From NCBI GenBank assembly GCA_002712305.1, contig PATE01000036.1, positions 28,027-61,938 on the forward strand: a DNA stretch of 33,912 bases, given 5' to 3'. Under the pieces are notes generated by a model that saw nothing but the letters and a program-made list of their open reading frames with translations, did not search any database and was not told where the DNA came from. Below, in pieces: positions 4,699 to 29,357 of the stretch. The stretch's first letter is position 1, and each line of letters begins with the position of its first letter. The position numbers and the translations under genes were made by a program. This stretch comes from Gemmatimonadota bacterium (GTDB taxonomy: Bacteria; Latescibacterota; UBA2968; UBA8231).

Positions 4699-6603
4699 AT
4701 GAAGGTTGGAAGACAGTTGAGAACCTCGGCAGCCATGCTGCTGTTCTCTGTTGGGACGGTGTTCGCTCAGGGCGCCATCGGCGCAGAGGACAACCAGATC
4801 ACCGAGAGTCGTATGCCCACGGTGGTGACGGTGGACATCGCGGATGTGAACAGTTCGAGTTTCCCAGTCAACATCCCATTCAGCATGACCGGTTCGGCAG
4901 CCACGGTGTATCTGGCCGTGTACACGAACCTTTCTGACTCGGAGTTGCCAGGGCTCACCACGCGTGGTGAGATCAACTGGCACACCTATCAGGAAGTGAA
5001 CTATGCCCTCCACGTGTCGGCTGGTTCCCGTTTTGAAGCGGGTTCGCACTCGCTCAGCTGGGATGGCACCGATATAGACGGCAACGCCGTCGATCCGTCG
5101 GGTAGCTATCGCTACTACGTCATCGCACTCGACGATCAGGCACCGATTAACATGGTCGCCTACACCAACGCGCGGCATACGGCCGAGTCGGCCCTGGCCC
5201 GTGATGGCAATGGCGATCTGTTCACCCTCACCGGTGGCGGAGCATCACGCCTGACGGCCGATGGCCCTCGGCACATGATCATCAGTAAGGTCGGAACGAA
5301 CTGGCTGGAGACGCCGGGTGCTTATCAGTCGATCGACGTCGAAGACGAGCTGATGACGGTCGCCCACACCGATGACATCGTGCCTGCCCAGTGGCAGGGC
5401 GGCGGCAATGGCAAGCAGTATGGTAGCTTGCCTGGTGACTTCTACGGTGACAGCTGGGATGGCACGGTCTATGGCGCGGTCAAGTTCAACGTAGATCCAG
5501 CCAACGGCCAGGTCACTCTTGACCGCAACTGGGGCACCGAAGGTGACGGACGCATGAAGTTTGCTCCCTTCAGCGATGGCAACTACAAGAACGGTTCCAC
5601 CGGTATCGACTCGTGGGACGGACGCCTCTACTACCCGACCTATGATCGTGGCGGTGACCTTCCGGCACACTCGCAGGTTGGTATCCAGGACGCAGCCACC
5701 GGTGAAGTGATCGACGTGCTCGATATCTCCGAGTGGAATGTGATCGACGTCGGTGCAGGCAACCAGGCCTTCAGCCCGCACGATATCTGGGTTGATGCCA
5801 CGGGCGTCTACGTCGTCGGTTATGCAGCACCGCTGCACGTCAAGGTCACTCTCGAGGGTGAACTGATGTGGACGAACAACAACGGTGACGGTTTTGCTGA
5901 CAGTCGCAATCCTGATACCGGTGAATATGACTTCGGTTCCTTCGCTTTGACCCCGTGGAATACCTCGGGTTCGGGTAGCAAGGACGGTCACGGATTCGCC
6001 TTCATTCCGCTGCTGGGCGCCACATCGGCCACGGTCGACATTCTCGGTCCGGACGGCACGGGTATTCTGCACATGCTGGCGAGCCATGCACCGGCTCACT
6101 GGCCGCAGTGGGTTGAGTCGATCGAAGAAGACGGTCCTTACGACGGCCTCTACTGGGATATCGGATCGCGTCGCGGTGGTGGTACCGACCCGATGGATGT
6201 TCCTGACTACACCGGCTTCCCGGCGCGTCAGGCGATTCACTTCCCGTACGACTCCAAGTCTGCTCTTATCAATCCGGGCGGCGCCGCCACGGCCGTGGAA
6301 GCTCTCGATCTCGCGACGCTTCCATCCAGTCACTCTCTCGACGACGCCAGCCCCAACCCGTTCAACCCAGAGGCAACGATCCGTTTCAGCCTGCCTCAGG
6401 ACGAACAGGTGGTCCTTCAGGTATTCAACCTGCAGGGTCAACTCGTGAAGACGCTGCACCAGGGTCACGTGGCAGCGGGCACCTACCAGAGTGTTTGGGA
6501 CGGTACCGACGAGACGGGAGCGAGCATGGCTAGTGGTGTCTATCTCTACAATCTGCAGGCAGGACGCTTCTCGCAGACCAAGAAGATGACGCTGCTCAAG
6601 TAG
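4699..6603 (+). CDS. Secreted protein with two FlgD-Ig-like domains and a T9SS type A-like C-terminus
   Basis: 634 aa from the ATG at 4699. This start is preferred over the in-frame ATG at 4684 because GGAG (4688-4691) sits seven bases ahead and the product opens with a clean signal peptide (MKVGRQLRTSAAMLLFS to about FAQ). Residues about 40-149 resemble a FlgD Ig-like domain (SHSLSWDGTDIDG, then a PSGSYRYYVIALDD strand). The middle, about 150-540, is beta-rich with WDG-type turns and an NNNGDGFADS loop that could bind calcium; a propeller is possible but unproven. Residues 551-634 carry the familiar SPNPFNPEATIRFSLP, LQVFNLQGQLVKTL, WDGTDETG and SGVYLYNL blocks of type A sorting/FlgD-like C-terminal domains. 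It is probably a surface or released protein, first in the train. Its substrate or ligand is unknown. Confidence 0.85.
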   Translation: MKVGRQLRTSAAMLLFSVGTVFAQGAIGAEDNQITESRMPTVVTVDIADVNSSSFPVNIPFSMTGSAATVYLAVYTNLSDSELPGLTTRGEINWHTYQEVNYALHVSAGSRFEAGSHSLSWDGTDIDGNAVDPSGSYRYYVIALDDQAPINMVAYTNARHTAESALARDGNGDLFTLTGGGASRLTADGPRHMIISKVGTNWLETPGAYQSIDVEDELMTVAHTDDIVPAQWQGGGNGKQYGSLPGDFYGDSWDGTVYGAVKFNVDPANGQVTLDRNWGTEGDGRMKFAPFSDGNYKNGSTGIDSWDGRLYYPTYDRGGDLPAHSQVGIQDAATGEVIDVLDISEWNVIDVGAGNQAFSPHDIWVDATGVYVVGYAAPLHVKVTLEGELMWTNNNGDGFADSRNPDTGEYDFGSFALTPWNTSGSGSKDGHGFAFIPLLGATSATVDILGPDGTGILHMLASHAPAHWPQWVESIEEDGPYDGLYWDIGSRRGGGTDPMDVPDYTGFPARQAIHFPYDSKSALINPGGAATAVEALDLATLPSSHSLDDASPNPFNPEATIRFSLPQDEQVVLQVFNLQGQLVKTLHQGHVAAGTYQSVWDGTDETGASMASGVYLYNLQAGRFSQTKKMTLLK

Positions 6604-6651
6604 CCGTGGAGTTCACGTAGAGCTTTAGAAAGTCGTATCGATCCATGGGAA

Positions 6652-6688
6652 CAAGGTGGACGGTCATCTTGAATGACCGTTCGCCTTG
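6652..6688 (+). terminator. Long hairpin after the first gene of the train
   Basis: Bases 6652-6667 pair with 6673-6688 over 16 positions, including two G-T pairs, around a CTTGA loop; the core ACGGTCAT/ATGACCGT is perfect. It lies 49 bases after the stop at 6603 and is followed by TCCGTTCT, only weakly U-rich. It may act as a terminator, attenuator or 3'-end stabiliser that raises the first transcript relative to the distal genes. Confidence 0.6.
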
Positions 6689-6698
6689 TCCGTTCTAC

Positions 6699-6737: not shown

Positions 6738-6787
6738 CTCACGAGCACGGTCCATTCAACCGAAGGTGCTTCGGTGAGGAAGGGAAG

Positions 6788-8944
6788 ATGACATCTGTGG
6801 GTAGAAGAGATTCGTCGCTCGTCCTGGCTCTGATGGTCGCCATTTCCATCTGTGGCCAGGCCTTGGGTGACACACTTCGCATCGGCCACTGGGAACAGAC
6901 CACCTACTACCGACACACCTTCGAGGCCGAAGAGGGGGTAGAAGCGGCTCTGCGCGTGACGGCCGTCGGTGACTACACGCTCTATATCAACGGCGCGCAA
7001 GCCGCCACCGACGCCAACTGGCAAACGGCAGAAGAAACTCTGGTCTCGCTCGAGTCGGGGAACAACGACATCGCCATCGCCGTCACGAGTTTTCAGGCCG
7101 AGCAGGGCAATGGCCTTCTCGTCAGCCTCGAGGGCGGGGCGCTGGTCGTCCGAAGCACCTTCACGGACGAGACGTCGCTGTGGTACTGGACCGGCGATGA
7201 ACAGGTCGGGACCGACTGGACGACAGCCAATGTCAGCGGCAGCTGGGATCGCGTGCGGGCCGGCACGATCGATCGATCGCAGGTGAGTGGTGGTATTTTC
7301 CACCCTGAGACGGAAGCGGTGGCAGGTTATCCGAACGCCGTCAACCTGGGCAGTTCCACCGACGGGCGGATCGTTCTCGCCGACCAGCGGGGGCAGAATA
7401 TCGCCTTGGGGTTGAATGCCAGCGAAGTGGGGATCACGGACGGCCGCATCGGTACACCCGTCTGGTCGCTGCCGCAAGGGCTCGGCGCGTTGAATCGTGT
7501 CGTCGATCTCACCCTGCCTGACCTGACCCGCATCAATCGGGTTCGGGTGATCACCAAACCGCCTGACGGCAACGAGACCTACGAGGGCAACTCCCTCCAA
7601 GGTTATTCGGTCCAGATCAGCGAGGATCAATCGCGCTGGATCGAGATGGGCGGACTCAACGACATTGAGGACTTCGTGTTCACCGAGGTCCAGTTCAATG
7701 CGGTTCTGGCACGTCACGTGCGCGTTCAGGTCACCCAGGCTGAAGTGGGCAGCGATCCAGCTAAAGTGACAGAGGTCCAGATCTACGGCGTCGACTTCGT
7801 GCCAGACGGTGCTTTCGTCTCACAGCCGCTCGACTTCGGCGATGCAGATGCCGTGAAGAATTTTGGTCGCGTCCGCTGGTGGGCAGACACGCCCCCCTCA
7901 ACATCCGTGGCTCTACAGTTCAGTACTGGAGACAGTCCGGATACGACCGATGGCAGCTGGAGTTCCTGGAGCGAGCCCTTCGAAGAGTCCGACATTCTCA
8001 TGCCCTCTCCAGAGCCCCGGCGCTATCTGCGATATCGGGTGAATCTTCACACGGAAGATCTTGAGTTTACGGCAGCTCTCGACAGTCTCGAGATCGACTT
8101 TGAACTCGCCGGGATCGCCGCACGGGATGCGAGTGGATCTGTCGAACCCAACGAGGCTGCCATGGGCGTCGAGACCCCCTTCGTCTACCGCCTCCAGCTG
8201 CAGTTGGGTGAAGGTGACCTCGTAGAGACGGTACGCGTTCGCTTGCCGAGCCAACCGTCACAAGTTGACGGGATCATCCTGCTCGGAGAGCAGATTCTCG
8301 TACCCGAATACCCCACGAGTGACGAGGGAATCACTGCCGGTGGGCGAACGTTGCACGTGACACCGGGTGGTGTGCGTGATCTCGATATCCGCTTCGACCC
8401 GCCTCTGAGTTCGGCAGATGCCGAAGAGCTCGATCTCGAGATCACGCTCGAGTCTGCCCTCTACACGGATACGCACGAGTTTCGGGCCTTCCTCTTCAGT
8501 CCCGGTTCCGAGGATCCACAGAATGTCCGTGAGCGTGTCGTGGACGACGCGTCTTGGAAGGTCGTTGTCAGCGATGTAGACACGCGTGATCTGTTTGGCG
8601 TCAAAGCTTTTCCAAGGGTGTTTACGCCAAACGGAGACGGCATCAACGATTTCACCGTGTTCGAGTTCACGCTGACCAAGGTGACTGAACCACGGGTGGT
8701 GGATGTCGAGGTCTTTGACGTCGGCGGACGGCGAGTTCGACGGCTCGACACGCCAAGACTCATCGGTGGCCGCTATCCGAATCTGCGTGTCGGCGGAGAC
8801 GTGGCACAATTGTCCCCAGGCTTCTGGGACGGCAAGGACGACGGCGGCGAACTGGTCGCCCCTGGGATCTACCTGTTTTCAGTGACCGCGAACTTGGACA
8901 CCGGTGACGAGACCGTCACAGGGGTCGTTTACGTAGCCTACTGA
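6788..8944 (+). CDS. Secreted discoidin-like protein with gliding-type (CHU_C-like) C-terminus
   Basis: 718 aa from ATG 6788. GAGGA at 6776-6780 lies seven bases upstream and the product starts with a good signal peptide (MTSVGRRDSSLVLALMVAIS to about QALG). A longer frame beginning with TTG at 6686 has neither feature. Residues about 25-140 are beta-rich with DYTLYINGAQAATDANW, as in galactose-binding-like modules of glycoside hydrolases. Residues about 184-334 look like an F5/8 type C (discoidin) domain (YEGNSLQGYSVQISEDQSRW, then RHVRVQVTQ and KVTEVQIYGVDF). About 335-450 and 460-600 are further beta-sandwich-like regions. From about 605 on, FPRVFTPNGDGINDF followed by VEVFDVGGRRVRRL and APGIYLFSVTA matches gliding-motility/T9SS type B-like C-terminal domains. 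A carbohydrate-binding surface protein is the best guess; no catalytic motif was recognised. Confidence 0.83.
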   Translation: MTSVGRRDSSLVLALMVAISICGQALGDTLRIGHWEQTTYYRHTFEAEEGVEAALRVTAVGDYTLYINGAQAATDANWQTAEETLVSLESGNNDIAIAVTSFQAEQGNGLLVSLEGGALVVRSTFTDETSLWYWTGDEQVGTDWTTANVSGSWDRVRAGTIDRSQVSGGIFHPETEAVAGYPNAVNLGSSTDGRIVLADQRGQNIALGLNASEVGITDGRIGTPVWSLPQGLGALNRVVDLTLPDLTRINRVRVITKPPDGNETYEGNSLQGYSVQISEDQSRWIEMGGLNDIEDFVFTEVQFNAVLARHVRVQVTQAEVGSDPAKVTEVQIYGVDFVPDGAFVSQPLDFGDADAVKNFGRVRWWADTPPSTSVALQFSTGDSPDTTDGSWSSWSEPFEESDILMPSPEPRRYLRYRVNLHTEDLEFTAALDSLEIDFELAGIAARDASGSVEPNEAAMGVETPFVYRLQLQLGEGDLVETVRVRLPSQPSQVDGIILLGEQILVPEYPTSDEGITAGGRTLHVTPGGVRDLDIRFDPPLSSADAEELDLEITLESALYTDTHEFRAFLFSPGSEDPQNVRERVVDDASWKVVVSDVDTRDLFGVKAFPRVFTPNGDGINDFTVFEFTLTKVTEPRVVDVEVFDVGGRRVRRLDTPRLIGGRYPNLRVGGDVAQLSPGFWDGKDDGGELVAPGIYLFSVTANLDTGDETVTGVVYVAY

Positions 8945-8959
8945 GTGCGGATCGTCACA

Positions 8960-9023: not shown

Positions 9024-11732
9024 GTGAGAACCGAGATTCGCAAAGGGCTTTCCCTGGCGGCAAGTGCCGTCTTCCTCCTGTTGTTCTGTCGCGCAGAGGC
9101 GCAGATGATCTCTCGCGACACGTATCCTCTTTGGGAAAAAGAGGGCTACGAGAACATCAGCCGATTGGGCTATCGCGACTTTGATAAACGAGACGTGGAG
9201 CGGCGCGTATACGACCCCTTCGGCGTCTACTTGATCGATGGCGTGCCCGTCTTCGCACTCCAGGAGACGCGGACCAACGGCCCCGAACGCGGCAGCGCCA
9301 TCTTCAAGAGCCCTCTGTATCCTGGAATCTTCCGCAACTTGATGATCGGCATGGACTCCTATCAGGGGTGGTCAGCGTCGATCATGGTGGGGGATGCGAT
9401 TCCGACCCGGTTCTCGCCACTCACACTCAACCTGAGTCGGCTGAACGGGATCCGCTTCGACGCTTCCTCACGGAAATCGAGCTTCAGCATCATCGGTTCG
9501 CGTGTCTCCGATCCGGTGTTGCTGGCCACCGGTCTGACGCGTAGCGGTGTGCAGGTCAATGCCGAGGGGATCTCGGGAAATCCCTCCTTTGGCACCTATA
9601 TGGTGGGAGCCCACTGGGAGACGAATCTCGGCAGTGTCCTCAAGCTCGGATCCACGTATGTCAACGTGCACAACTTTGACGCCATCGCGGGACGTAAGGA
9701 CGGTTCTCTGAAGGGTTCCATCCCGTTTTCCAGTCTGGAAGAGGCGCGCTCCGTGTTCGTCATCGTCAGTGACGATTCGCACTGGGATGAGAGTGGCCCC
9801 CGTATCTATCGCCTAGAGATGAGCATCGACGGGGAACGGCGAGACGACATCGAGCCCATGGTTCGCGTCGTCCGGAATGTCCCAGCGCTTATCGGTGCTT
9901 CGAACCGCGAACTCGGACTGGGCGAAAGCGAGATCGCCCTGCAACGTGCGGACCGTCCCTCGTGGCTGATTCAGACCTACCTGATGGAAGAGATCGTCAG
10001 AGAGGGCTACACGCGCAGTGGTGCCCTGAGCAGTTTTACCAGCGGTGGCGTGTTCTTCAACTCTGGAGAAGAAGTCTCGCACGCAGAGACCCCGTTTCTC
10101 GAGGCGAGTGGCACCGACATCCTGGTCTATCGATTCGAAGTGCCGTCCAATGCCGAGGAAGTCCGTTTCCGTGCCTTGGCGGCCGGCGACTACGTCATCG
10201 ATGTGGCCAGTGCGCTGGGCTGGATCGGCAACGACGTGCAGTGGCGAGATTGGCACACGGTGAAACGAGCCGATGACAACATCCAAGACCAAAGCAATCT
10301 CGGATGGGTCAGTTTCCGTTATGGCTTTCCCACAGGGACCACTCTCTACGGCGTGAACTTCGAGGCCAATCTCTTCGGCTTCCAGGCGTGGGGGGAATTC
10401 TCGCGCAACACGTCCTATTTCCGCTATCCGTCGGGCTCCGGAAAACGTCTGGCAACCGATGTCGATGCGTATTTCGTCAATCTCTATCGAGATATGGGTC
10501 CGTGGGATCTGGGCTTCGAATACGCCAATATGCCCTCTGACTACTCCACCACGTTTCAGGCGCTGATGCAGAATCCGCGGCAGAACGTGATCTCGTCGTT
10601 CGAACTGGTTGATGACAACGATGATCGGGACGAATGGCCCGATCGCTGGGAACAGGATCGAAGCTTCGCCTCGCTGAATCTGACGCCGGCGCCAGGAGCC
10701 GGAATGGGATTCGGCGTGTTCCCAGGTCTGGATGTCGACCGCGACGGTGTGCAGGACAATGTCTGGTACAACGGTGGCAACCGAATCCTGACCTACTATG
10801 ATCAGCCGTTCTTCTTCGGTGACGACTTCAACAACAATGGTCAGATCGACGGTTGGGAGAATGACAACCGGGCCGACTATCCCTACGACCACGACAGCCG
10901 CGGTGGTCACGGGTTTGTGACGTGGCGGCCCTTGCCCGAAGTGGACGACGCTTTTGTGCGCGCCGGCTACTACAACATGCATCAGCCAGGTGGGGGCGGC
11001 AGCGATCGCGCCAGCTACTTGAAGGCCAACTACGTGGAGTCCTATCCCGGTCTGGGTCGGCTGCAGGTGGGGTACTACGGCAAGAGAGTGCGCGACGATA
11101 TCCGCAACGATCTCTACCGGTTCACGGGTGGATCATACAGGGTGCTCCCCGATCGGCTGCTGCTGCGCAACAGCCTGGTGAATACACTTGTGCTCGGCTT
11201 CCATTTGAATACCGACGTACTGCCAAATCTGAACGTGCACAACGACCTCCTGCTCGAGGTCAACAGCCAACGAGAAGTCAGTGACGGTGACTTCTATCAG
11301 CCGAGCAGACGGCTGACGACGGTGGGTTATGTGGCACGGGCCGACTACACCTGGCACGTGGGCGACAATTTCACCTTCGGGCCCATGCTGAAGGGCATCG
11401 TGCGGCGCACGAAAGCCGAACTGCAGACGCTGAAGCAGGACACGTACACGATCACACCCATTTTCCGCGCAGACTACCGCCTCACAGGGAGTACGGTTGT
11501 GCGCGGTGGCGTGCTCGGTCTGCCCTTCCGCGAGATCCACAGGGACCAGGATCGGCCTTTCTTTGATCGCGACTCGTGGTATTACATCCTGCTGCTGGAG
11601 AATCTCGGCAACTATAGGGGCATCGATGTGAGCACGAGCATCGGCTTCGAGCGGGTTTTTGACCGCTATGTCTCTTCCCACCGTGTGTCGGCTGGTGCCG
11701 AGCGCTACTACATCCGCATGCGTGCCGGGTAG
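9024..11732 (+). CDS. Giant secreted beta-rich protein, paralogue 1 of 3 (putative outer-membrane barrel)
   Basis: 903 aa from the GTG at 9024, chosen because it gives a compact signal peptide (RTEIRKGLSLAASAVFLLLF to about RAEA). A GTG at 8988 would add 12 residues and cannot be excluded; ribosome-binding evidence is weak for both. I do not recognise a named family. It shares a full-length layout with the next two genes: an N-terminal region with IDGVPVFALQETRT and LTLNLSRLNGIRFDASS, a second module opened by NIQDQSNLGWVSF, then an acidic segment. That segment (from about residue 530) has VDDNDDRDEWPDRW, GVFPGLDVDRDGVQDN and DDFNNNGQIDGWENDN, which look like calcium loops. The C-terminal ~270 residues are alternating, aromatic-rich beta strands as in outer-membrane barrels. 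Its stop abuts the next start. A surface or pore role is inferred. Confidence 0.75.
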   Translation: MRTEIRKGLSLAASAVFLLLFCRAEAQMISRDTYPLWEKEGYENISRLGYRDFDKRDVERRVYDPFGVYLIDGVPVFALQETRTNGPERGSAIFKSPLYPGIFRNLMIGMDSYQGWSASIMVGDAIPTRFSPLTLNLSRLNGIRFDASSRKSSFSIIGSRVSDPVLLATGLTRSGVQVNAEGISGNPSFGTYMVGAHWETNLGSVLKLGSTYVNVHNFDAIAGRKDGSLKGSIPFSSLEEARSVFVIVSDDSHWDESGPRIYRLEMSIDGERRDDIEPMVRVVRNVPALIGASNRELGLGESEIALQRADRPSWLIQTYLMEEIVREGYTRSGALSSFTSGGVFFNSGEEVSHAETPFLEASGTDILVYRFEVPSNAEEVRFRALAAGDYVIDVASALGWIGNDVQWRDWHTVKRADDNIQDQSNLGWVSFRYGFPTGTTLYGVNFEANLFGFQAWGEFSRNTSYFRYPSGSGKRLATDVDAYFVNLYRDMGPWDLGFEYANMPSDYSTTFQALMQNPRQNVISSFELVDDNDDRDEWPDRWEQDRSFASLNLTPAPGAGMGFGVFPGLDVDRDGVQDNVWYNGGNRILTYYDQPFFFGDDFNNNGQIDGWENDNRADYPYDHDSRGGHGFVTWRPLPEVDDAFVRAGYYNMHQPGGGGSDRASYLKANYVESYPGLGRLQVGYYGKRVRDDIRNDLYRFTGGSYRVLPDRLLLRNSLVNTLVLGFHLNTDVLPNLNVHNDLLLEVNSQREVSDGDFYQPSRRLTTVGYVARADYTWHVGDNFTFGPMLKGIVRRTKAELQTLKQDTYTITPIFRADYRLTGSTVVRGGVLGLPFREIHRDQDRPFFDRDSWYYILLLENLGNYRGIDVSTSIGFERVFDRYVSSHRVSAGAERYYIRMRAG

Positions 11733-20070: not shown

Positions 20071-20808
20071 ATGTGGGAAATCATACAAAGCGGCGGACCG
20101 ATGATGGTGCCGCTCACCATCTGTGCAGTCATGGGCATCGCCTACACGATCGAGCGAGCGTGGGTCCTGAAGGGCATGCCCAAGCCTGAGCAGGCCAAGT
20201 CAGAGCTCGAGAATCTGGAGGCGGCCTTGCTGCGTGGCGGACAGGAGGCCGTGGTCGAACAGTGTCGTCAGGGCAAGGGGGTACTCAACTATGTGTTCTC
20301 TGCCCTGCTCAAACGGCACACAACGTTGATGATCGAGCAACGCGAGTTTCAGGCGACGCACGAGGAAATCGTGAATCTTGCCGAAAGTGCCGGTGGTGGA
20401 GATATGGGGCGCTGCATGGTCATGCTGCGCGAACTTGAGGACCTGAAGTCCGAACTCGTGGTAGAGACGGAAGAGGCGGCACGGGAGTATCTGGGCAAGA
20501 ATCTTGTCGTGCTGTTCACAATCGGGAATATCAGCCCTCTGCTCGGTCTGTTGGGCACGATCATGGGTATGATCATTGCCTTCGAGTCGATCGCCGTTGC
20601 CGGGGCGGGTGATCCGAGAGTCGTCGCCGGCGGTATCTCGCAGGCACTGGTCACGACCGCATCGGGTCTCATCGTGGCGATTCCTTCGATCGTGATCTAT
20701 CGATTTCTTGCTCGCTGGGCCGATCGCTCGCTGAAACAGGTCGAAGTCTACGGCCATGCCTTTGCGAACACGTTGATCATGTCCTCTCGGGACGAAACCA
20801 GCGCCTGA
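20071..20808 (+). CDS. exbB: MotA/TolQ/ExbB family proton-channel protein
   Basis: 245 aa. ExbB/TolQ proteins form pentameric inner-membrane channels that, with ExbD/TolR, turn proton flow into motion of a periplasm-spanning partner. Three membrane helices are visible: about 11-30, 144-172 and 190-211. The large soluble region lies between helices 1 and 2, as the family requires. Family motifs are ISPLLGLLGTIMGMIIAF in helix 2 and ALVTTASGLIVAIPSIVIYR in helix 3, with the channel-lining Thr residues preserved. It follows the DUF4159 protein by 54 bases and precedes two exbD genes. No TonB or TolA gene is present in the window, so the usual partner is either elsewhere or replaced by the upstream protein. 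Symbol is by family, not proven orthology. Confidence 0.9.
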   Translation: MWEIIQSGGPMMVPLTICAVMGIAYTIERAWVLKGMPKPEQAKSELENLEAALLRGGQEAVVEQCRQGKGVLNYVFSALLKRHTTLMIEQREFQATHEEIVNLAESAGGGDMGRCMVMLRELEDLKSELVVETEEAAREYLGKNLVVLFTIGNISPLLGLLGTIMGMIIAFESIAVAGAGDPRVVAGGISQALVTTASGLIVAIPSIVIYRFLARWADRSLKQVEVYGHAFANTLIMSSRDETSA

Positions 20809-20820
20809 GGGCGACCGGAT

Positions 20821-21237
20821 ATGGCCAGGCATCGCCAGGAACACGGCAAGAGCTTCGCTGACGAGACCGAACCGGATCTCACGCCGTTGATCGACTGCGT
20901 GTTTCTGTTGCTCGTGTTCTTCATGGTTACCACTGTATTCCTGCAGGCCAAAGGGCTCGACGTCGACCTACCCGCCCCGAGCGAAGCCGAGGAAGAACAG
21001 AAGAAGGACATCAATGTTGTCTTGGGTGCCGACGGGGATATCCAGATTGGTGGTGAAGCGGTTGATGCATCGGCTCTTGCCGATCGATTGACGGCGGCGA
21101 TGGAAGAGGCCAACAACGAGAACATCATCATTCGAGCAGATGAGAAATGTCACCAACGGCACGTGGTGTTTGTCGTGGACACGGCCAAGGGCGTAGGCGT
21201 ACAAGGGATCGCCTTCGTTCGCGTGCAGGAAGAATAG
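20821..21237 (+). CDS. exbD: ExbD/TolR family protein, copy 1
   Basis: 138 aa, 12 bases after exbB. The N-terminal tail is followed by one membrane helix (about 23-43) opening with LTPLIDCVFLLLVFFMVTTV. D25 is the conserved proton-carrying aspartate of ExbD/TolR. The periplasmic domain of about 95 residues (LDVDLPAPSEAEEEQKKDIN, then VLGADGDIQIGG and NIIIRADEKCHQRHVVFVVD) fits the family. It has the same membrane helix as the next gene, almost base for base, but a different periplasmic domain. A motor with two kinds of ExbD subunit is plausible. Confidence 0.9.
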   Translation: MARHRQEHGKSFADETEPDLTPLIDCVFLLLVFFMVTTVFLQAKGLDVDLPAPSEAEEEQKKDINVVLGADGDIQIGGEAVDASALADRLTAAMEEANNENIIIRADEKCHQRHVVFVVDTAKGVGVQGIAFVRVQEE

Positions 21238-21240
21238 GGC

Positions 21241-21651
21241 ATGGCGACGCCAATCAGTCAGCACGAGGAGCAGGACCTCAATCTCACGCCGATGATCGAC
21301 TGCGTGTTCCTGTTGCTGGTGTTCTTCATGGTTACGACCGTCTTCAAGCAGCCGTACAGCTTGCAGGTCGAGCTGCCTGAGGCCCAGCAGGCTCACCAGG
21401 TCGAAGAGAAGAAGCTGGTTTGCTCCATCACTGCAGACGGCCGCATGGAGATCAACCGAGAGCCGGTGACCAAGGCACAACTGCAGCAAGTACTGTCACA
21501 TCACAAGCAGCAGACAAGGAGTCTGACGCTGATCGTGCGGACGGACAAAACAACCGAACATGGCCACCTGCTGGATCTGTTAGAGGTCGCCAAGGGAATG
21601 GGCATCGAAAAAGTGGTTCTCGCCACAGAAGACAAGGAGGTCGAGTTGTGA
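21241..21651 (+). CDS. exbD: ExbD/TolR family protein, copy 2
   Basis: 136 aa, three bases after copy 1; AGGAAG near the end of copy 1 can serve as ribosome binding site. LTPMIDCVFLLLVFFMVTTV forms the membrane helix, with proton-carrying aspartate D20. The periplasmic part (LQVELPEAQQAHQVEEKKLV, then CSITADGRMEINREP and LLDLLEVAKGMGIEKVVLAT) keeps the ExbD fold pattern but has diverged from copy 1. Paired exbD genes downstream of exbB are known in several phyla; why both are kept here is not known. A 43-base gap with no recognised element leads to the DUF4340 gene. Confidence 0.9.
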   Translation: MATPISQHEEQDLNLTPMIDCVFLLLVFFMVTTVFKQPYSLQVELPEAQQAHQVEEKKLVCSITADGRMEINREPVTKAQLQQVLSHHKQQTRSLTLIVRTDKTTEHGHLLDLLEVAKGMGIEKVVLATEDKEVEL

Positions 21652-21694: not shown

Positions 21695-23017
21695 ATGACA
21701 CTCAAGTCTGTGCTGCAGATCTGCATTGTGTTTGCCATTCTTGCAGGGGCCATTCTCTATTCGAACCAGAAGGAGCAAGAGAAAGAGGACGTCGCCGAAC
21801 TGACGAAGGAGCTCGTCGTTCTCGACAAGTCAAGGGTGGACGGTCTGACGATTGAAACGGCTGCCGGCGCCGTTGTCCTGCGCAAGGTGGACGGCACATG
21901 GAAGATCCTCGAGCCGCTTCGGTTGGACGCAAGTGCTGGCGCCATCGAGGGCGTTCTGGCAAACCTGGAACGCGCCCATCTGAAGAAATTTCTGCTTCTG
22001 GACGAAGGGGAGGAAACCGAGCGGCTTACCGAATACGGTTTGATCCCCCCCCATGTCAGAGTGATCGTGCAGGTCGAGGGCAGTGTTCTTGATACCATTG
22101 ATTACGGCAACAGCCCGCTCAATACCTATGTCTATGTGAAAAGAGCCTCCCAGCAACGCGTCGGCATGACCGAACTCTACCGGCGCACCGGAGTGGACAA
22201 AGATCTGTTTGAATTGCGCGAGAAACGGGCCCTCAGGTTCGAAAAATCGGCTGTCACGTCCGTTCGCATCACCCGGCCGAGTCTCACGATCGAGATTGCC
22301 AGAGATGGGGACAGCTGGCGTCTACAGCAGCCTTCGGAAGGCCCCGCTGACGGTGGACAGGTCGATTCGGTCCTTTCACGTCTGAGTGCCGCGTTCATGA
22401 CCTCCTTCGATGACGCGCCGGCGAGCCTGTCCTCCTATGGCCTTGATACTCCCACTCTACAGGTCGATGTGCATGCCCAGGGCGCAGATGGATCGACGAC
22501 CACTCACACACTGTCAGTCGGCGATGTAGCCGCGAGCGGCCATTATGCGAAGAGTGAATCGGCACCCTACGTCTTCACCTTGGACAGTTCCTTCGTGCAG
22601 GGCATGCCCACATCCGATTTCCGCCTGGGTCCCAAGAAGCTCCTGGATTTCCAGAGAAAGACCGTGGACCGAGTTGAGTTTATCTATCCAGATCGCTCGA
22701 TTCTCTGCGTGCGTGACAACAACGCATGGGTTGCCGCCTCACCCCCAGGTCCTATCGATGGCAATGAGATGGAGGCGATCCTGTTTACCATGGAGCAGTT
22801 GGAAGCGGTAGCCTTCACCGAAGGCTCACAGAGCCTCCGGACCCCAAGCCTCCGTGTTCGAGCGTGGGCAGCATCGGAGATCGTCGCCGATCTCTCCCTT
22901 GGACAGGTTGAAGGCGACAGAGTGCACGCAAGGGGTAGCCTCATTGAACGCGGTACTCTGGTCGAGAAAGCGGAAGCTGATCGGTTGATGCCGGAGCGGA
23001 TCTTTGTCGGCGAGTAG
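21695..23017 (+). CDS. DUF4340 domain membrane-anchored protein
   Basis: 440 aa. One N-terminal membrane helix (LQICIVFAILAGAILYSNQ, about 6-24), then a periplasmic region built from repeated DUF4340-type units. DKSRVDGLTIETAAGAVVLR followed by DGTWKILEPL recurs as KSAVTSVRITRPSLTIEIAR with DSWRLQQPSEG, and again as RKTVDRVEFIYPDRSILCVR with AWVAASPPG. YGL-type signatures appear twice (EYGLIPPHVRV and SYGLDTPTLQV). DUF4340 is found in GldG-like proteins of gliding and envelope ABC systems, but no ABC transporter gene is present here. Translation is probably coupled to the TPR gene, which overlaps its last 14 bases. Anchored periplasmic scaffold is the best description; no activity is known. 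Confidence 0.82.
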   Translation: MTLKSVLQICIVFAILAGAILYSNQKEQEKEDVAELTKELVVLDKSRVDGLTIETAAGAVVLRKVDGTWKILEPLRLDASAGAIEGVLANLERAHLKKFLLLDEGEETERLTEYGLIPPHVRVIVQVEGSVLDTIDYGNSPLNTYVYVKRASQQRVGMTELYRRTGVDKDLFELREKRALRFEKSAVTSVRITRPSLTIEIARDGDSWRLQQPSEGPADGGQVDSVLSRLSAAFMTSFDDAPASLSSYGLDTPTLQVDVHAQGADGSTTTHTLSVGDVAASGHYAKSESAPYVFTLDSSFVQGMPTSDFRLGPKKLLDFQRKTVDRVEFIYPDRSILCVRDNNAWVAASPPGPIDGNEMEAILFTMEQLEAVAFTEGSQSLRTPSLRVRAWAASEIVADLSLGQVEGDRVHARGSLIERGTLVEKAEADRLMPERIFVGE

Positions 23018-24278
23018 GACAAGGGATAGCAACGATGACGTACAAAGACGACAGAAGACGCGCCGACGCGGGATCACCGCTGCTGTCGTCACCCTTGTCA
23101 CTGGTGGAGCTGCCATCTACGGGCTCTGGATCCTTCCTCAGGAAGAACTCGCCGAGGCTGTGTCCCTGGTGGAGAAGGGCAACGCGCTGCTACAGGCAGG
23201 ACAGACGATGAAGGCCATCGACCACTACAGCCGTGCCATTCAACTGGACGCCGGATCGGTGCTGGCCCACAACGGCATGGGAATGGCGTATCGGGGGGCG
23301 GGCAACTTTCCGAGGGCCGAGCAGTTTCTTCGAAAGGCGCTCTCGCTAGATCCTGCCGCCGTGGAGACGTACAACAACCTCGCCATCGTCTATGCCGAGG
23401 GTGGCAGGCTCCGGGAATCGGAAGCCACGTACCGGAAAGCACTGTCCGTCGATTCCACGTCGGCTGTGATGCGCTTCAATGTCGGTGCCTTCTATGCCCA
23501 AGTGGGCTCGTATTCGCAGGCGGCGGAGCAGTACAAACGCGCCATCGAGTTGCGGAGCGATCTGTATCAGGCCCACAACAACCTGGCGCTGGCCTATATC
23601 GCTCTGGGCAACACGGCGGAGGCGATCGCCGAGTTCGAGGCTTCCATTCGACTGAATCCACACCAGGGGCGTGCCTACTACAACCTGGGCCTGGCCCGCG
23701 AGGAGCAGGGCAACTACGAGGTGGCTGCCGACTTGTATCGCAAGGCACTCACCAACCGGATGGGTAGTCCTGATGTCCACTATCATCTCGGGGTGGCTCT
23801 CGAGGGAATGCGTGATCTGGTCTCGGCGAAGCAGCATTTCGGCACGGTCTTGTCTCTTGATGCCTCCCACAAGGAAGCTCACTACCGCCTTGGGGTGATC
23901 GCGGCGAAGGAGAGAAGATTCGACGACGCCGAGGTTCACTTCACGGCGGCCATCGACATCGATGCACAGTTCGCCGACGCTCACTACAACCTGGCTCGTC
24001 TGTTGTTCAAGCAAGGCAAGAGTGATGCCGCCATGCGCGAGATGGAACTCTTCAAGAGTCTGAGTGCTTACAACAAGGAAGTGGAGAGCCTCGAGCGGAT
24101 CCTCCTCTACCTACCCAGGGACGCCAAGGCCCATCTCGAGTTGGGACACGTGCACCGGAAGTACGAGCAACACGACAGGGCCCTCGAAGCCTATCGCACG
24201 GCTCTGTCCATCCGGCCGGGTTTTCGGGATGCCCAGCAAGCGTTGACCGAGGCGCTCGAAGTCACAGAGGCTCTGTGA
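23004..24278 (+). CDS. Membrane-anchored TPR repeat protein
   Basis: 424 aa from a TTG at 23004, with GGAG (22993-22996) seven bases upstream; no other in-frame ATG gives a better start. The gene overlaps DUF4340 by 14 bases. A basic N-terminus (RRQKTRRRG) precedes one membrane helix (about 25-43, TAAVVTLVTGGAAIYGLWIL), so the repeats should be periplasmic. About ten tetratricopeptide repeats follow, for example KAIDHYSRAIQLDAGSVLAH, AYYNLGLAREEQGNYEVAAD and DRALEAYRTALSIRPGF. TPR domains hold protein complexes together. In this position it is probably a scaffold between the Exb motor and outer-membrane parts, by inference from context. Confidence 0.85.
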   Translation: MSASRTRDSNDDVQRRQKTRRRGITAAVVTLVTGGAAIYGLWILPQEELAEAVSLVEKGNALLQAGQTMKAIDHYSRAIQLDAGSVLAHNGMGMAYRGAGNFPRAEQFLRKALSLDPAAVETYNNLAIVYAEGGRLRESEATYRKALSVDSTSAVMRFNVGAFYAQVGSYSQAAEQYKRAIELRSDLYQAHNNLALAYIALGNTAEAIAEFEASIRLNPHQGRAYYNLGLAREEQGNYEVAADLYRKALTNRMGSPDVHYHLGVALEGMRDLVSAKQHFGTVLSLDASHKEAHYRLGVIAAKERRFDDAEVHFTAAIDIDAQFADAHYNLARLLFKQGKSDAAMREMELFKSLSAYNKEVESLERILLYLPRDAKAHLELGHVHRKYEQHDRALEAYRTALSIRPGFRDAQQALTEALEVTEAL

Positions 24279-24312: not shown

Positions 24313-27300
24313 ATGGGACTGTTAGGACTTGCCATCGTCAGTATCTCGATGAGCGTCGCTTACATCGCCAGGGATGTGCCGACGAGCGACTTCATGCTCT
24401 CCACCTTCCAGGCCGGACAGAGTTTCTATTCCGAGGGTGCCTACGACCAGGCGATCGACAAATACCGCAGCGTCGGCGAGGAGCGCAGCGTTCTTCTGGA
24501 CGACAGCGAAATCATCGTCGTCGTCGGTGAGGTGGAAGCCACCGTCAAGGATGCCGCCATCTACCAGGTTGGCAACTCGTATTTCAAGATGTTCGAGGAG
24601 GCGACGCAGGCTGCTGAGGGCTTGAGGGACAAGGACGAAAAGAGCCGGCGTCTGGCGCAGGCGGAAGAATACCTCGAGGAAGCGGTCAGCTTCTTCTCTC
24701 GCGTCGAAGAGCAATCCGACTCTGACGAACTGCGTGTGCTGGCGCAGGGTCGCATCATGACCTGCTTGTACAGCGCTCGCCGCTTCGAAGATGTGATTCG
24801 CGAAGGACGCGAGTTTGTCGAGCGTTTCCCAAGCCATCCGTATGTCGTGGAAGCTCTCTACAACATTGGCTGGTCCTACTATGAACTCAAAGACTACGAC
24901 AAGAGCATTGGCGCCTTCACCGAACTGACGCAAAGCTTCGAGTCAGGTTTCCAGGTGAGCCGAGCGCTGTTTCAGATCGGTGAGTGTTACTACGACCAGA
25001 AGCGCTACGCAGAGGCCATTCCACACTATCAGGCCCTTGTGGACCAGGCCGACATCAGTGAGCTCACCGAGCAGGATGTTCAGCGAATGCAGTTCGAGAA
25101 GGTCGCTGGTCTGGTCGACGAAACGGAGTACGAACTCACTGCCAAGGCGCAGATCCGCATCGGCGACAGCCACAGTCAACTGGGAGACTTCGACAAGGCC
25201 GAAGACGCCTACCATACGGTGACCAACGTGTTCTCGCAGGAACGACGTCTGGTTGAGAAGGCGTACCAAAGTCTTGCGGACATGTATTTCTCGAGTCGCC
25301 TGCTGACGCGATGTGTGGGTGCGTATCGAGAGGCGATCGACAACGCCACCAGCAAGACCTTCCAGGCACGGATGCAGTTTCAGCTGGCCCAGCGTTATAC
25401 AGAGGCGAGCCGCGAGTGGGGGGAAGATCTATACGACGACGCCATCCGTGAGTTCAACGTCTACTTAAAGGCCTACGGCGAGGTCGCCAGTTCGGCGGGT
25501 TACTCTCTTGCCAATACGTATTACGAGATCGGCCAGGTCCACTACGCCAAGGCGGAACGTTTCGCGGCCCAGGGCGCGCAGGACCAGGCGATGGACGCCT
25601 ATGGAGCGGCTCTGTCCTCGTACTCCACGCAGCTGGAAGATCATCCTGAGGCGGCCTTCGACATGGCGGCTCGATTTAATGCGGCTCTTTGCCGGCAGAT
25701 GCTCGGGGGAGATACGCAGGATGAGGCCATCGAAGGGTTCAGCCAGATCATCGCCGAAGACCCCGATGGGCCCTATGCCATCAGCTCACAGTTCCAGCTT
25801 GCCCGCATCCAGCTCGGCCAGGGGCAGCATGATGAGGCGACGACCACGTATTCTCAGATCATCGCGGCCACGAGTGATTCAAATCATCTGGATGTGGCTC
25901 ACTTCGAACTGGGACTGGTTCGAGCGCAGGCCAAGGACCTGACCCAGGCGGCCGAGCACCTGCTACAGGTACGCCAGGGAGCTCCCCAGTATTCACTTTC
26001 GAGATTGGAAGCGGCACGCAGCTTCGTCAGCCTCGCCGATTTCGACCAGGCCCTGTCGGTTCTTCGGCAAGGCATGGACGTGGCCCAGAGCGACAGCGAG
26101 AAAGCTCAGTACTGGTATCTGACCGGGAAGGCCCACGTTGGTAAGCAGGACTACTCAAATGCCATAGACGCGTTCTCCAACACTCTTCGTGTCTCGTCGG
26201 ATCCGCTGCTCCAGGAGATCGCCCGCTACGACCGGGGCACGAGTTACACGCGGTTGGAGATGTATGCCGAGGCTGTCGAGGATCTGAAACTTCTGACGGC
26301 GTCGGAGAACGAGCGAATTCGCGGGGCTGTGCAGAGGATGCTCGGCATGGCCTATCTGCGACTGAACGACCAGCAGGAGGCCTTGCGAAGTTATTCTGAA
26401 CTTGCAGCTACGTCTCAGAATCTGTCCGAACGTGCGGACTACCTGATTCTGATTGTTGAACTCTACATGGAGCTGGAGCAGTACGACGAAGCCGTCTCCA
26501 CCGGTCGGCAGATTCTGGCCCTTGACCTTGGCGATGACAAGGGAGGCCGAGAGTATTCGGTCCGAGAACAGACGCACTTTCTCATCGCCGAGAGTCTGCA
26601 CAGCAGTGGCAACTACGAGGACGCCGTTTCCGCCTACATAGAAGGGCTCAGCCGATATCCTGACTCGTTCTATTCTCCAGATATGTCCTATGCGCTGGGT
26701 ACTTTGTACTTCCAGATGGATCGTCTGGATGAGGCGGCGGACACCCTGACCGACTTCGTCGCACGATTCGGTGACTCACCGAACGCGCTGTATGGACTCT
26801 ACTATCTCGGCTACGCCCATTTCAGCTTGCGCGATTTCGACAAGTCCCGAGACGTATTCGCCGATCTCGCCGAGAGATTCCCTGATTCAGAGGTTGCCGC
26901 GGAAGCCATGATGCGGGTCGCGGAGAGTGCCTTCAATCTGAGTGAGTTTGACCTCGTGATCGGTGTCTACAAGGACGTGCTCACCGCGTATCCAGACGCG
27001 CCATTCCTCGACGAGGCGACATACAACATGGCCTGGGCCCATTACGAAGCCCAGAATGAAGAGGAGTTTATCAGCGGTCTGCGCCGTCTGCTCAATGGGT
27101 TTCCGAAGAGTGAATTCGCCCCGGATGCCCGGTTTACCCTCGGGGATCACTACTTCAACAAAGAGCAGTATCAGGAGGCCCTCAATGAGTATCAGCTCGT
27201 ATTGCGGGACCACGGCGATTCGAAGATCGCCGGTGAAGTGCCGGAAGTGTTGAAGAATGTCCGTGAGATTATCGCATATGGCGAGTACGAAGAGGCGATA

Positions 27301-27597
27301 GCCATCTTCAGTGTGGCCTTGGGGCTCGACAAAGAAGACAAGAAAGCCGAAGCGTTAGAGAAGTTCCGAGAGGTCGTGCCCATGTTCGTCAATCTGATGG
27401 AGAAGTACCCGGGCACGGAAGTACAGGTCGGAGCCCTGAGCAATCTTGGTGTTTGTTATGAGTTCCTGAACCAGTGGCAGGACGCGGTACAGACCTACGA
27501 CAAGGTGATCGAACTGTTCGAGGCCCAGGAGGCGAGCCAGGAGGCGTATCAGTTCGCCAAGGGGCATCGCGATTGGATTGTGACCTCTCGGCTCTGA
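24313..27597 (+). CDS. 1094-aa TPR-repeat envelope protein
   Basis: ATG 24313 has AGGAGG (24298-24303) nine bases upstream. Residues 1-20 are a hydrophobic helix (LLGLAIVSISMSVAYIA) that acts as signal or anchor. The remainder is a long alpha solenoid of more than 20 tetratricopeptide-like repeats, for example ALYNIGWSYYELKDYDKSIG, ARIQLGQGQHDEATTTYSQI, LGYAHFSLRDFDKSRDVFAD and GDHYFNKEQYQEALNEYQLV. Many repeats carry the longer spacing seen in YbgF/CpoB- and BamD-like TPRs, known partners of envelope motors and barrel assembly; this resemblance is pattern-based. Its length would allow it to span the periplasm or wrap several partners. No enzymatic domain was seen. The frame is intact throughout. 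Confidence 0.85.
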   Translation: MGLLGLAIVSISMSVAYIARDVPTSDFMLSTFQAGQSFYSEGAYDQAIDKYRSVGEERSVLLDDSEIIVVVGEVEATVKDAAIYQVGNSYFKMFEEATQAAEGLRDKDEKSRRLAQAEEYLEEAVSFFSRVEEQSDSDELRVLAQGRIMTCLYSARRFEDVIREGREFVERFPSHPYVVEALYNIGWSYYELKDYDKSIGAFTELTQSFESGFQVSRALFQIGECYYDQKRYAEAIPHYQALVDQADISELTEQDVQRMQFEKVAGLVDETEYELTAKAQIRIGDSHSQLGDFDKAEDAYHTVTNVFSQERRLVEKAYQSLADMYFSSRLLTRCVGAYREAIDNATSKTFQARMQFQLAQRYTEASREWGEDLYDDAIREFNVYLKAYGEVASSAGYSLANTYYEIGQVHYAKAERFAAQGAQDQAMDAYGAALSSYSTQLEDHPEAAFDMAARFNAALCRQMLGGDTQDEAIEGFSQIIAEDPDGPYAISSQFQLARIQLGQGQHDEATTTYSQIIAATSDSNHLDVAHFELGLVRAQAKDLTQAAEHLLQVRQGAPQYSLSRLEAARSFVSLADFDQALSVLRQGMDVAQSDSEKAQYWYLTGKAHVGKQDYSNAIDAFSNTLRVSSDPLLQEIARYDRGTSYTRLEMYAEAVEDLKLLTASENERIRGAVQRMLGMAYLRLNDQQEALRSYSELAATSQNLSERADYLILIVELYMELEQYDEAVSTGRQILALDLGDDKGGREYSVREQTHFLIAESLHSSGNYEDAVSAYIEGLSRYPDSFYSPDMSYALGTLYFQMDRLDEAADTLTDFVARFGDSPNALYGLYYLGYAHFSLRDFDKSRDVFADLAERFPDSEVAAEAMMRVAESAFNLSEFDLVIGVYKDVLTAYPDAPFLDEATYNMAWAHYEAQNEEEFISGLRRLLNGFPKSEFAPDARFTLGDHYFNKEQYQEALNEYQLVLRDHGDSKIAGEVPEVLKNVREIIAYGEYEEAIAIFSVALGLDKEDKKAEALEKFREVVPMFVNLMEKYPGTEVQVGALSNLGVCYEFLNQWQDAVQTYDKVIELFEAQEASQEAYQFAKGHRDWIVTSRL

Positions 27598-27628
27598 GGG
27601 TCACAGGTTTGCGTGAGAAAGGGAAGTC

Positions 27629-28450
27629 ATGAGTTTTTTGCGGAAACGGGTGTATCAGGCCCCGTTGAATCGTCTTGGGAATCGTCTTGGGCATTGCATG
27701 GGGATTGGTTTGGGTCTTCTTGCGGCGGGCTGCATCATCTTCCCACCGAAGATCCACTACAACTCCTACATGCAGCCATCGGAACTCTCGAGCGATGTGG
27801 AGTCCTATCGAACTGAGGAAGATGGTTCGGTCTCCTACGTCGCAGAAGGACTCCGGGTCAATGTCGACTATCTCACCGACGCCGAGCTGAATGCGCTGCT
27901 TCCCGAGGATTCGCAGAGAGAAGAGTATTCGACCAATCCGTACACCTACGGTGATGAGGTCGAAGGAGACGTCGGTTACGTCCCCAATCGGTTCTCCGTC
28001 TTTCGTGTCAGTGTCTTCAATCAGACCTTCGCGAAAGTCGAATTCGATCCACTCGAGGTCGATCTCCTGACCGACCAGGGCGAATCCTTGCACGCCTATG
28101 GCATCCCGTCTACATCTCCGAACCAGAGTTTCGAGCGTTACTACCGAGGGCTCCGCGGACAGAGTGGCAACGAGTTCTACCGATTCGAGGTCCGCATGGG
28201 ACACGTGCGCAGCCTTGGTTATGCCGAAGACCAGCCCATTTTCAAGGGCGAAAGCTACAGCGGCTTGATCGTCTTCGATACGCTGAATCCGCAGGTCAAG
28301 AAGGTTCGATTCGTGTTGCCGCAGTTTGCCCTCAAGTTCGATGAGTTTGGTCGTGTGATCGAGTCCATCGATTGCCACTTTGATTTCGACCGCCACATCG
28401 AGAAGTGGACGGTCGAGGAACATGCGAGCGCCGGTTCTCCAAGCCAATAG
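27629..28450 (+). CDS. Putative lipoprotein of unknown family
   Basis: 273 aa. AAAGGGAAG lies just before the ATG. A basic N-terminus and hydrophobic stretch end in LGLLAAGC (Cys35), a lipoprotein-type cleavage site with Ala at -3. The N-terminal region contains a short in-frame DNA repeat (AATCGTCTTGGG twice near 27668-27692), giving NRLGNRLG. The mature part is beta-rich and soluble (NRFSVFRVSVFNQTFAKVEF, then DPLEVDLLTDQGESLHAYGI and GLIVFDTLNPQVKKVRFVLP). I do not recognise the family. Its end overlaps the start of the CsgG/FlgT-like gene by 29 bases, so the two are probably co-translated and may act together at the outer membrane. Confidence 0.72.
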   Translation: MSFLRKRVYQAPLNRLGNRLGHCMGIGLGLLAAGCIIFPPKIHYNSYMQPSELSSDVESYRTEEDGSVSYVAEGLRVNVDYLTDAELNALLPEDSQREEYSTNPYTYGDEVEGDVGYVPNRFSVFRVSVFNQTFAKVEFDPLEVDLLTDQGESLHAYGIPSTSPNQSFERYYRGLRGQSGNEFYRFEVRMGHVRSLGYAEDQPIFKGESYSGLIVFDTLNPQVKKVRFVLPQFALKFDEFGRVIESIDCHFDFDRHIEKWTVEEHASAGSPSQ

Positions 28451-29357
28451 TTCCCACGGGCGCCGGTGGCGCTTGTCGAGGCTCCTGACGGCCGTCCTGA
28501 TTCTGCATGTCCTGCCCGCTGGCGCGATTCAGCGTGGTGATACCGTGGCGATTCTCCCTTTCGAAGATCACAGTGATTTTCCGGGCACGTGGGACATCCG
28601 TCGTGGTCTCGCGGAGAAGCTGGCGATCTTCATGGCCGACACACTCGGTCTGGTGGTGCTGTCTCACGACACGATCGCGGCCGTTGTGTCAGCCAGCGGC
28701 GAGGCTCACCAGTCCATCGATCAAGCGCGGGTCGTCGGGCAATCTCTATATGCCGATTTTGTGCTGACCGGTGACATTGTGGATTTCTCGATCAGACGAT
28801 TCTCTGTCGGGAATCCCTCTCTGGGTGGCTACGCCTCCTACACGGCGCTGGTGGACCTCGAGACACGCCTTGTGCGAGTTTTTCCCGGTGCAACACAGGT
28901 CGAGGCCTTTCGTGGCATGGCCGAAGAGGAAGCCGACGATCTGGGCCTGACACTGATGGGAAAACCGACCGAGACCGCCGCGTTGCATAAGCAACTGAAT
29001 GATGTCGTCTTCGGGAGCGATGTGTTCGCTGCTACGATCATCGGCAAGGCGACCCAACGGTCAGTGCAGCAGATTGTCGACGGGCTCTCCGCCCGGGTTC
29101 TGAATGAGAACCTGGTGCTGAAGCAAGGGGCGAAGATCTTGAGCCTGGAAGGTGAAGAGGGGTTCGTAAACCTGGGGATTGCGGACAAGGTCGAGGCGGG
29201 CCACCGTTTTGACATCTATTCCAGAATCGACAGCCAGCGAGTGGGTGCCATCCAGGTGGTCGTTCCCCTCGCGGCACACCTGTCGCAGATACGAATTACC
29301 GACGGGGCGCAACAGATTCAACCTGGAGACCTGTTACGGGCCCCGGTAGGTCGGTGA
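28422..29357 (+). CDS. CsgG-like protein with FlgT-type C-terminal domain
   Basis: 311 aa from ATG 28422, chosen because GAGGA lies just upstream and the product has a signal peptide (WRLSRLLTAVLILHVLPAGA). The longer frame from a TTG at 28380 would bury it. Residues about 37-215 resemble the CsgG/TolB-N-like fold: VAILPFEDHSDFPGTW, then LAEKLAIFMADTLGLVVLSH and LYADFVLTGDIVDFSIRRFS. Residues about 225-308 (KILSLEGEEGFVNLGIADKV, EAGHRFDIYSRID, IQPGDLLRAPVGR) match the C-terminal domain of the flagellar protein FlgT. CsgG itself is an outer-membrane secretion pore; FlgT binds the flagellar basal body. Whether this one makes a pore is not shown, as the CsgG transmembrane strands are not obvious. 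It is the last gene of the envelope train. Confidence 0.65.
   Translation: MRAPVLQANSSHGRRWRLSRLLTAVLILHVLPAGAIQRGDTVAILPFEDHSDFPGTWDIRRGLAEKLAIFMADTLGLVVLSHDTIAAVVSASGEAHQSIDQARVVGQSLYADFVLTGDIVDFSIRRFSVGNPSLGGYASYTALVDLETRLVRVFPGATQVEAFRGMAEEEADDLGLTLMGKPTETAALHKQLNDVVFGSDVFAATIIGKATQRSVQQIVDGLSARVLNENLVLKQGAKILSLEGEEGFVNLGIADKVEAGHRFDIYSRIDSQRVGAIQVVVPLAAHLSQIRITDGAQQIQPGDLLRAPVGR

Follow-up and report, generated by a model that had tools for sequence, protein, structure and literature searches.

A conserved gene train in a Latescibacterota genome

The window analysed here is a 33,912-nucleotide stretch of DNA (bases 28027-61938 of contig C57) from a genome of 4.77 Mb and 91% completeness, which the genome tree and named relatives place in the Latescibacterota, some of these relatives standing under other names in GenBank. 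It carries a long run of envelope genes, here called the train, encoding surface proteins, giant barrel-like proteins, lipoproteins, TPR proteins, and an ExbB-ExbD-ExbD motor with a TonB-like transducer. Our evidence is wholly computational and comes from draft genomes, only the best candidates per genome being scored in the large genome searches, and it establishes the train as a real, conserved module. The core set is g5, three barrels of ~1,000 residues (BAR1-3), TPR2, a DUF5683 protein, an fn3 lipoprotein, a TonB-like/DUF4159 transducer, g18, and ExbB-ExbD-ExbD; a DUF4340 protein, TPR1, and a CsgG-like protein are peripheral. The principal genes are as follows.

4699..6603, + strand: g4, surface protein with FlgD_ig/type IX-like C-terminal domain (FlgD_ig 5e-18)
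6788..8944, + strand: g5, surface protein, constant neighbour of the barrels (weak F5/8-type and C-terminal FlgD_ig/CHU_C matches; start by Shine-Dalgarno)
9024..11732, + strand: BAR1, predicted giant outer-membrane beta-barrel (AlphaFold2 model m73834538b8c0)
11733..14570, + strand: BAR2, giant barrel paralogue (32% identity to BAR1)
14570..17740, + strand: BAR3, giant barrel paralogue (30% identity to BAR1)
17737..18321, + strand: g9, DUF5683-like membrane protein (DUF5683 3.6e-5, below cut-off; retained in other trains)
18318..18719, + strand: g10, small fn3 protein, probable lipoprotein (fn3 4.5e-5; N-terminus LSLIGTSCGDD, not flagged by the automatic lipobox scan)
18754..20016, + strand: g11, TonB-like transducer, with periplasmic DUF4159 in place of TonB_C
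20071..20808, + strand: ExbB/TolQ-type proton channel (PF01618 2e-27)
20821..21237, + strand: ExbD1, membrane Asp DLTPLIDCVFLLLVFFMV (PF02472 4e-29)
21241..21651, + strand: ExbD2, membrane Asp LNLTPMIDCVFLLLVFFMV (PF02472 1e-32)
24313..27597, + strand: TPR2, 1,094 residues, N-terminal hydrophobic anchor or signal (in most other trains, immediately 3' of the final barrel)
27629..28450, + strand: g18, lipoprotein of a lineage-specific family (lipobox LLAAGC; phylum-only distribution)

The genes named in the initial annotation are all present on one strand, as it had stated, and every gene from 4699 to 33444 lies on the + strand. The tight packing that it described from the first giant paralogue (9024) onward also holds: from BAR1 on, neighbouring genes overlap or are separated by at most 54 bases (0, -1, -4, -4, -41, 54, 12, 3, 43, -14, 34, 31, -71, 1, -35, and -1 bases). 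The two junctions preceding BAR1 measure 82 and 43 bases with longest-open-reading-frame starts and are longer with the better starts at 4699, 6788, and 9024. Promoter- and terminator-like matches within the train showed no excess over shuffles, and scanning the window with Rfam and for tRNA gave no match. Pfam confirmed the matches to DUF4159, MotA_ExbB, ExbD (twice), DUF4340, TPR (twice), FlgD_ig/CHU_C, and FG-GAP/ASPIC; of the domains called from the sequence earlier, the CsgG/FlgT-like one (g19) proved weak.

Recurrence and co-variation

A second train in the same genome, on contig C21, reads g4-g5-BAR1-BAR2-BAR3-TPR2-DUF5683-fn3-transducer-g18-CsgG-ExbB-ExbD-ExbD and is 29-70% identical to the window set. 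A partial third (C43) runs g4-g5-BAR1-BAR2 to the contig end, and the end of C52 carries ExbB-ExbD1-ExbD2, 62-73% identical to the window copies, which may belong to this third train if the two contigs join. Reduced loci on C47, C122, and C77 hold a g5-like gene with one or two barrels, accompanied in two cases by a g18-like gene. Across the phylum, the full set occurs in families f1, f6, and f7 at ~30-50% identity and barrels occur in f1 and f5-f9, with reduced loci elsewhere made up of barrel-g18 units that lack motor genes; several divergent trains per genome are frequent. Recurring blocks reach 10-13 genes, so order is conserved beyond pairs. It is also partly shuffled, TPR2 mostly following the last barrel elsewhere and the motor genes being relocated or absent, and because the set is kept while its order changes, selection for the set fits better than mere descent of one block. 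All 15 genes had been taken as a single set, a view that must be narrowed: DUF4340 is confined to the window-type trains of f1, TPR1 and the CsgG-like gene are found in part of the trains (again only some of those in f1), and ExbB-ExbD-ExbD can lie elsewhere.

Barrels were detected in 39 of the 64 phylum genomes and g18 in 38, every one of them barrel-positive, giving concordance in 63/64 (Fisher 6e-17, relatedness ignored); g18 was found in 0/322 genomes outside the phylum. Strong transducer matches fall in the same families as the barrels, and the barrels, g18, and the TonB-like protein co-vary, in keeping with the suggestion that co-loss and co-gain be sought across the phylum. Family-level trait counts are non-independent events. 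Because the negative families f2-f4 belong to the class of f1 and the negative f10 lies outside that class beside the positive f5-f9, the parts were probably gained or lost jointly more than once.

In genomes with at least two trains, distances among paralogues of BAR1-3, TPR2, g18, g5, g4, DUF5683, and the fn3 lipoprotein correlate with those of the transducer at 0.92-0.99, and only 2-9 of 500 within-genome swaps were as good as the true matching; the swaps came from a pool of no more than 96 distinct arrangements, which included the true one. Judged by these distances, the paralogous trains are inherited and duplicated as blocks. Recurrence and co-variation together support the earlier proposal of a shared function across both membranes.

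Outer-membrane barrels

Neither Pfam nor NCBIfam gave a family match at threshold for BAR1-3 (an SlpA_C barrel appeared only at 0.018), and a sequence search against solved structures returned a single match, by chance. The AlphaFold2 model of BAR1, a low-confidence one, consists largely of strands of 8-16 residues, and its top solved matches in a structure search were all outer-membrane barrels, with SlpA of Deinococcus (S-layer deinoxanthin-binding complex) first (Z 15.5, root-mean-square deviation 10.6 over 422 residues). Since every best match is of this kind, the model supports the prediction that BAR1 is a large outer-membrane barrel with long antiparallel strands, and the barrel-like label given to the giant proteins is borne out to that extent. 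SlpA is the closest solved fold for BAR1; however, the two share 11% identity, the fit is loose with a large deviation on a low-confidence model, and no energiser enters the comparison. Two other identities for the barrels were rejected: that of a TonB-dependent receptor, as Pfam found no Plug (PF07715) in BAR1-3, and that of SprA, as profile TIGR04189 did not match the barrels and finds SprA solely at G000:C91.

Transducer and motor

The product of g11 begins with a short basic cytoplasmic segment, followed by one transmembrane helix, a Pro/Lys/Arg-rich linker, and DUF4159, a domain with strong conservation. Among solved structures, g11 comes closest to 4i66, Hoch_4089 (E 9e-12), and searches with Pfam and NCBIfam matched DUF4159 only, with no FHA and no TonB_C. 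Read from the sequence, the motifs typical of these proteins are kept in ExbB and both ExbDs, each ExbD retaining its membrane aspartate. Tandem arrays of 3-4 TonB-like DUF4159 genes occur in family f7 (G008:C76, L075; G007:C347, L076), suggesting many partners per motor.

Surface proteins and genes of type IX secretion

The C-terminus of g4 exceeds the cut-offs for FlgD_ig, Por_Secre_tail, and TIGR04183, as expected of a type IX C-terminal domain, and the tail of g5 is weaker. Full-length paralogues of g4 stand at the start of other trains. Both g4 and g5 had been regarded as surface cargo, but they are conserved over their full length in paralogous trains and are therefore parts rather than casual cargo. 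For the lipoprotein g18 and for g19, comparison with solved structures gave chance matches only; the predicted structure of g18 has a predicted local distance difference test score (pLDDT) of 47.

Among the 64 phylum genomes, SprA was matched in 63, C25 peptidases in 60, and GldM in none, though the GldM search had no positive control (no control genome matched). Within 9 kb upstream of the window (G000:C57:19507-25603, or L045:9508-15604), a PorZ-like gene precedes one for PorU (606 bits, cut-off 420); next come genes for an M28 peptidase and an epimerase-like protein, g1 (198..1040 of the window itself), and a second M28 peptidase gene. A second PorU/PorZ-like pair is found near the ExbB-ExbD-ExbD genes of C52. 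A g1-type DUF4159 lipoprotein gene with PorU and M28 genes also precedes the train in G059 and G060, and the order PorU, M28, epimerase, DUF4159 lipoprotein is repeated in G060 (L130). A second operon, encoding a PorV-family protein, a 1,085-residue TPR protein, ExbB, ExbD, and a TonB-like DUF4159 protein (G000:C76, L114; L120-L128), is conserved in f1 and f6, with parts in f8 and f9 and the transducer in f5; in some genomes a g18-like gene precedes it. This operon may represent the motor part in an ancestral or housekeeping form.

Families f2, f3, f4, and f10 bear SprA and have no train and only weak DUF4159 matches. We thus rejected the idea that the train is a universal motor for type IX secretion. 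With GldM unmatched in the SprA-bearing Latescibacterota, these data raise the question of how type IX export is energised there. In our literature search, which left most subscription papers outside its coverage, type IX secretion and Latescibacter- were never mentioned together.

Relatives outside the phylum

A barrel profile search outside the phylum matched 7/322 genomes (1e-16 to 1e-31). In G102, G379, and G247, a barrel of 1,095-1,159 residues has ExbB-ExbD-ExbD directly or one gene downstream, and in two of the three a DUF5683-like gene and a Wzz-type gene lie upstream of it. In others, the barrel adjoins PorV-family and FlgD_ig/PorZ-like genes. DUF4159 proteins are present in 6/7 of these genomes, with alignment limited to the DUF4159 part, and the TonB-like N-terminus of the transducer was unmatched in them. 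Beyond the phylum, too, the barrel family is linked to ExbB-ExbD-ExbD. As a side observation, the upstream genes at L140 (G102) and L142 (G379) are of the Wzz/GNVR polysaccharide chain-length type, and there the barrel N-terminus is lipobox-like (YGCG).

Comparison with known systems

The initial annotation knew of no named system with this gene set, which was too strong: two similar cores have been described. The Myxococcus Agl-Glt core complex combines a single TolQ/ExbB and a pair of TolR/ExbD proteins with a TonB-like transducer and two long TPR proteins (PMC3169522), and Agl-Glt/Nfs uses one exchangeable motor with several output complexes to move surface polymer (PMC3169522, PMC3858216). 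The seven-gene core (aglRQS, gltC, gltD, gltE, gltG) resembles the train in its adjacent genes for one TolQ-like and two TolR-like proteins (20071-21651 in the train), its TonB-like bitopic transducer, its very long and shorter TPR proteins, its outer-membrane proteins and lipoproteins, and its paralogous output complexes per genome, Glt and Nfs having a common motor. It differs in that the train transducer ends in DUF4159, whereas the GltG type has FHA, a transmembrane helix, and TonB_C; in that the three train barrels have ~1,000 residues, as against 209-275 for the Glt proteins; in that TPR1 scores 83.5 bits against the GltE cut-off of 225 (NF033758), below several other TPR families; and in the FlgD_ig surface proteins and type IX genes near the train.

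The second is the TPR-TPR-ExbB-ExbD-ExbD-TonB cluster of Fibrobacter succinogenes (FSU_2397-2403), which is up on cellulose and for which import has been proposed (PMC6851124). Compared by description, it is alike in motor and TPR composition and in coming from an organism of the Fibrobacterota-Chlorobiota-Bacteroidota group with reported type IX-secreted enzymes; it differs in its "TonB family" protein in place of a DUF4159 fusion, and no giant barrel is reported. It is the most useful cultivable analogue. The type IX and gliding apparatus of Bacteroidota (SprA, PorV, PorU, PorZ, PorW/SprE, GldLM) shares with the train FlgD_ig/CHU_C tails, a long TPR protein, a motor driven by the proton-motive force (pmf), and, close to trains or to the related operon, genes for PorU, PorZ-like, and PorV-family proteins; however, the train barrels do not match SprA, its motor is ExbB-ExbD-ExbD, and SprA is encoded elsewhere, including in train-less genomes. 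TonB-ExbB-ExbD with TonB-dependent receptors or SusCD likewise combines an energiser, a bitopic transducer, large barrels, and many copies, but the train barrels lack Plug, the transducer lacks TonB_C, and there are two ExbDs and three barrels per set. The train lacks a GltG-type transducer and GltE, is not based on SprA, and shows neither Plug nor TonB_C; we place it as a variant among pmf-driven trans-envelope machines (this motor class is reviewed in PMC9389320). The best reading, by analogy, is that it would work like the Agl-Glt/Nfs class, though through another transducer and with other components in the outer membrane. The train is new in its family of barrels, its DUF4159 transducer, and its tie to type IX genes; DUF4159 was nowhere mentioned in our literature search, with the same limits of coverage.

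Possible functions

Taking the sequences together, we consider it about an even call that the train encodes a pmf-driven trans-envelope machine acting on outer-membrane barrels and type IX-tailed surface partners. Proton flow through ExbB-ExbD-ExbD would move the transducer, whose DUF4159 end would engage TPR2, g18, and the periplasmic face of the barrels, and the force could gate or move the barrel assembly with the attached type IX-exported surface proteins. Least certain is the use: most likely the machine would transport, place, or move surface proteins or a polymer bound to them, with several parallel versions in each genome, much as Agl-Glt/Nfs does; pmf-driven surface transport is proven in that analogue system (PMC3858216). 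A stronger form, in which ExbB-ExbD-ExbD acting through the DUF4159 transducer and the giant barrels replaces GldLM in exporting, placing, or moving type IX-sorted proteins and so defines a distinct machine class, we consider somewhat unlikely. Several observations weigh against the trans-envelope reading. ExbB-ExbD-ExbD is absent beside some trains (G049, G042 C159, G053), and ExbB and ExbD follow the transducer distances less closely (r 0.68-0.82; 37-45/500 swaps as good), although this looser matching is expected if motors are exchangeable between trains. The BAR1 model has a pLDDT of 54 and a predicted template-modelling score of 0.49. The PorV-family gene scores 83 bits against a cut-off of 90, and the PorZ-like calls are also under NCBIfam cut-offs. 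Type IX export as such can do without the machine, for SprA occurs in train-less families, and the evidence leaves the direction of transport unconstrained.

Tight packing by itself is common in bacterial genomes, and order is shuffled between trains, both of which would suit a chance adjacency of unrelated envelope genes; but the set recurs inside genomes and across them, its members co-occur, and their paralogues match by train, all of which already contradicts such a reading, and we find it scarcely credible. The remaining alternatives differ in what the energy would be spent on. Each train could be a TonB/ExbBD-type importer of one large substrate, a glycan or glycoprotein, with surface proteins that bind, barrels that pass it, and a multiplicity reflecting substrate range, as for SusCD pairs. 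The number of divergent copies in each genome, whose surface proteins diverge as well, the weak F5/8-type (sugar-binding-like) match in g5, the M28 peptidase and Ldh_2 genes nearby, and the import proposed for the Fibrobacter cluster (PMC6851124) all suit uptake. Against this, Pfam finds no Plug or TonB-receptor domain in the barrels, these genomes commonly encode ordinary Plug proteins (13 in the window's own), and no constant hydrolase or inner-membrane transporter set accompanies the trains, leaving import somewhat unlikely.

A type IX-like exporter or motor, with ExbBD and TonB-DUF4159 in place of GldLM, TPR2 in place of PorW/SprE, and barrels exporting or anchoring FlgD_ig-tailed proteins, would account for the frequency of SprA beside the absence of GldM matches, for the PorU/PorZ-like genes adjoining trains, for the PorV-family gene in the single-ExbD operon, and for the PorV-family and FlgD_ig neighbours of the barrels outside the phylum. 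It is nevertheless unlikely: SprA-bearing families without a train mean that the train is not a general motor, the GldM negative comes from a search that lacked a positive control, and TPR2 matches generic TPR families better than it does PorW/SprE (8e-31). Gliding, in which the train would drive adhesins along the surface, draws on the parallel in composition to Agl-Glt (PMC3169522) and on the pairing of a motor with surface proteins bearing type IX-like tails. We judge it very improbable given several divergent trains per genome, the low score of TPR1 against GltE, and a literature search that found no documented gliding for the phylum. If the trans-envelope reading is right, the train would be an energised, multi-copy envelope machine with tested boundaries in an uncultured phylum, and DUF4159 would be assigned a role open to testing, that of the distal end in a TonB-like transducer.

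Peripheral and flanking genes

The limits of 4699-29357 originally set for the train are too narrow, as associated genes lie beyond both ends. The peripheral and associated genes are as follows.

198..1040, + strand: g1, DUF4159 lipoprotein, associated, upstream (49% identity with g11 across the aligned segment)
21695..23017, + strand: DUF4340 protein, peripheral, only in window-type trains (Pfam)
23004..24278, + strand: TPR1, N-terminally anchored TPR protein, peripheral (Pfam)
28380..29357, + strand: g19, CsgG/FlgT-like periplasmic protein, peripheral (DUF7499 9.5e-4, sole match)
29359..31101, + strand: g20, FG-GAP/ASPIC-UnbV surface protein, often adjoining trains (Pfam)

Two paralogues of g19 flank the C21 train. 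A DUF6785/DUF6784 membrane protein, encoded on the - strand at 2333-4312 of the window, often adjoins trains on either strand (G049, G042, G053, G050, G041).

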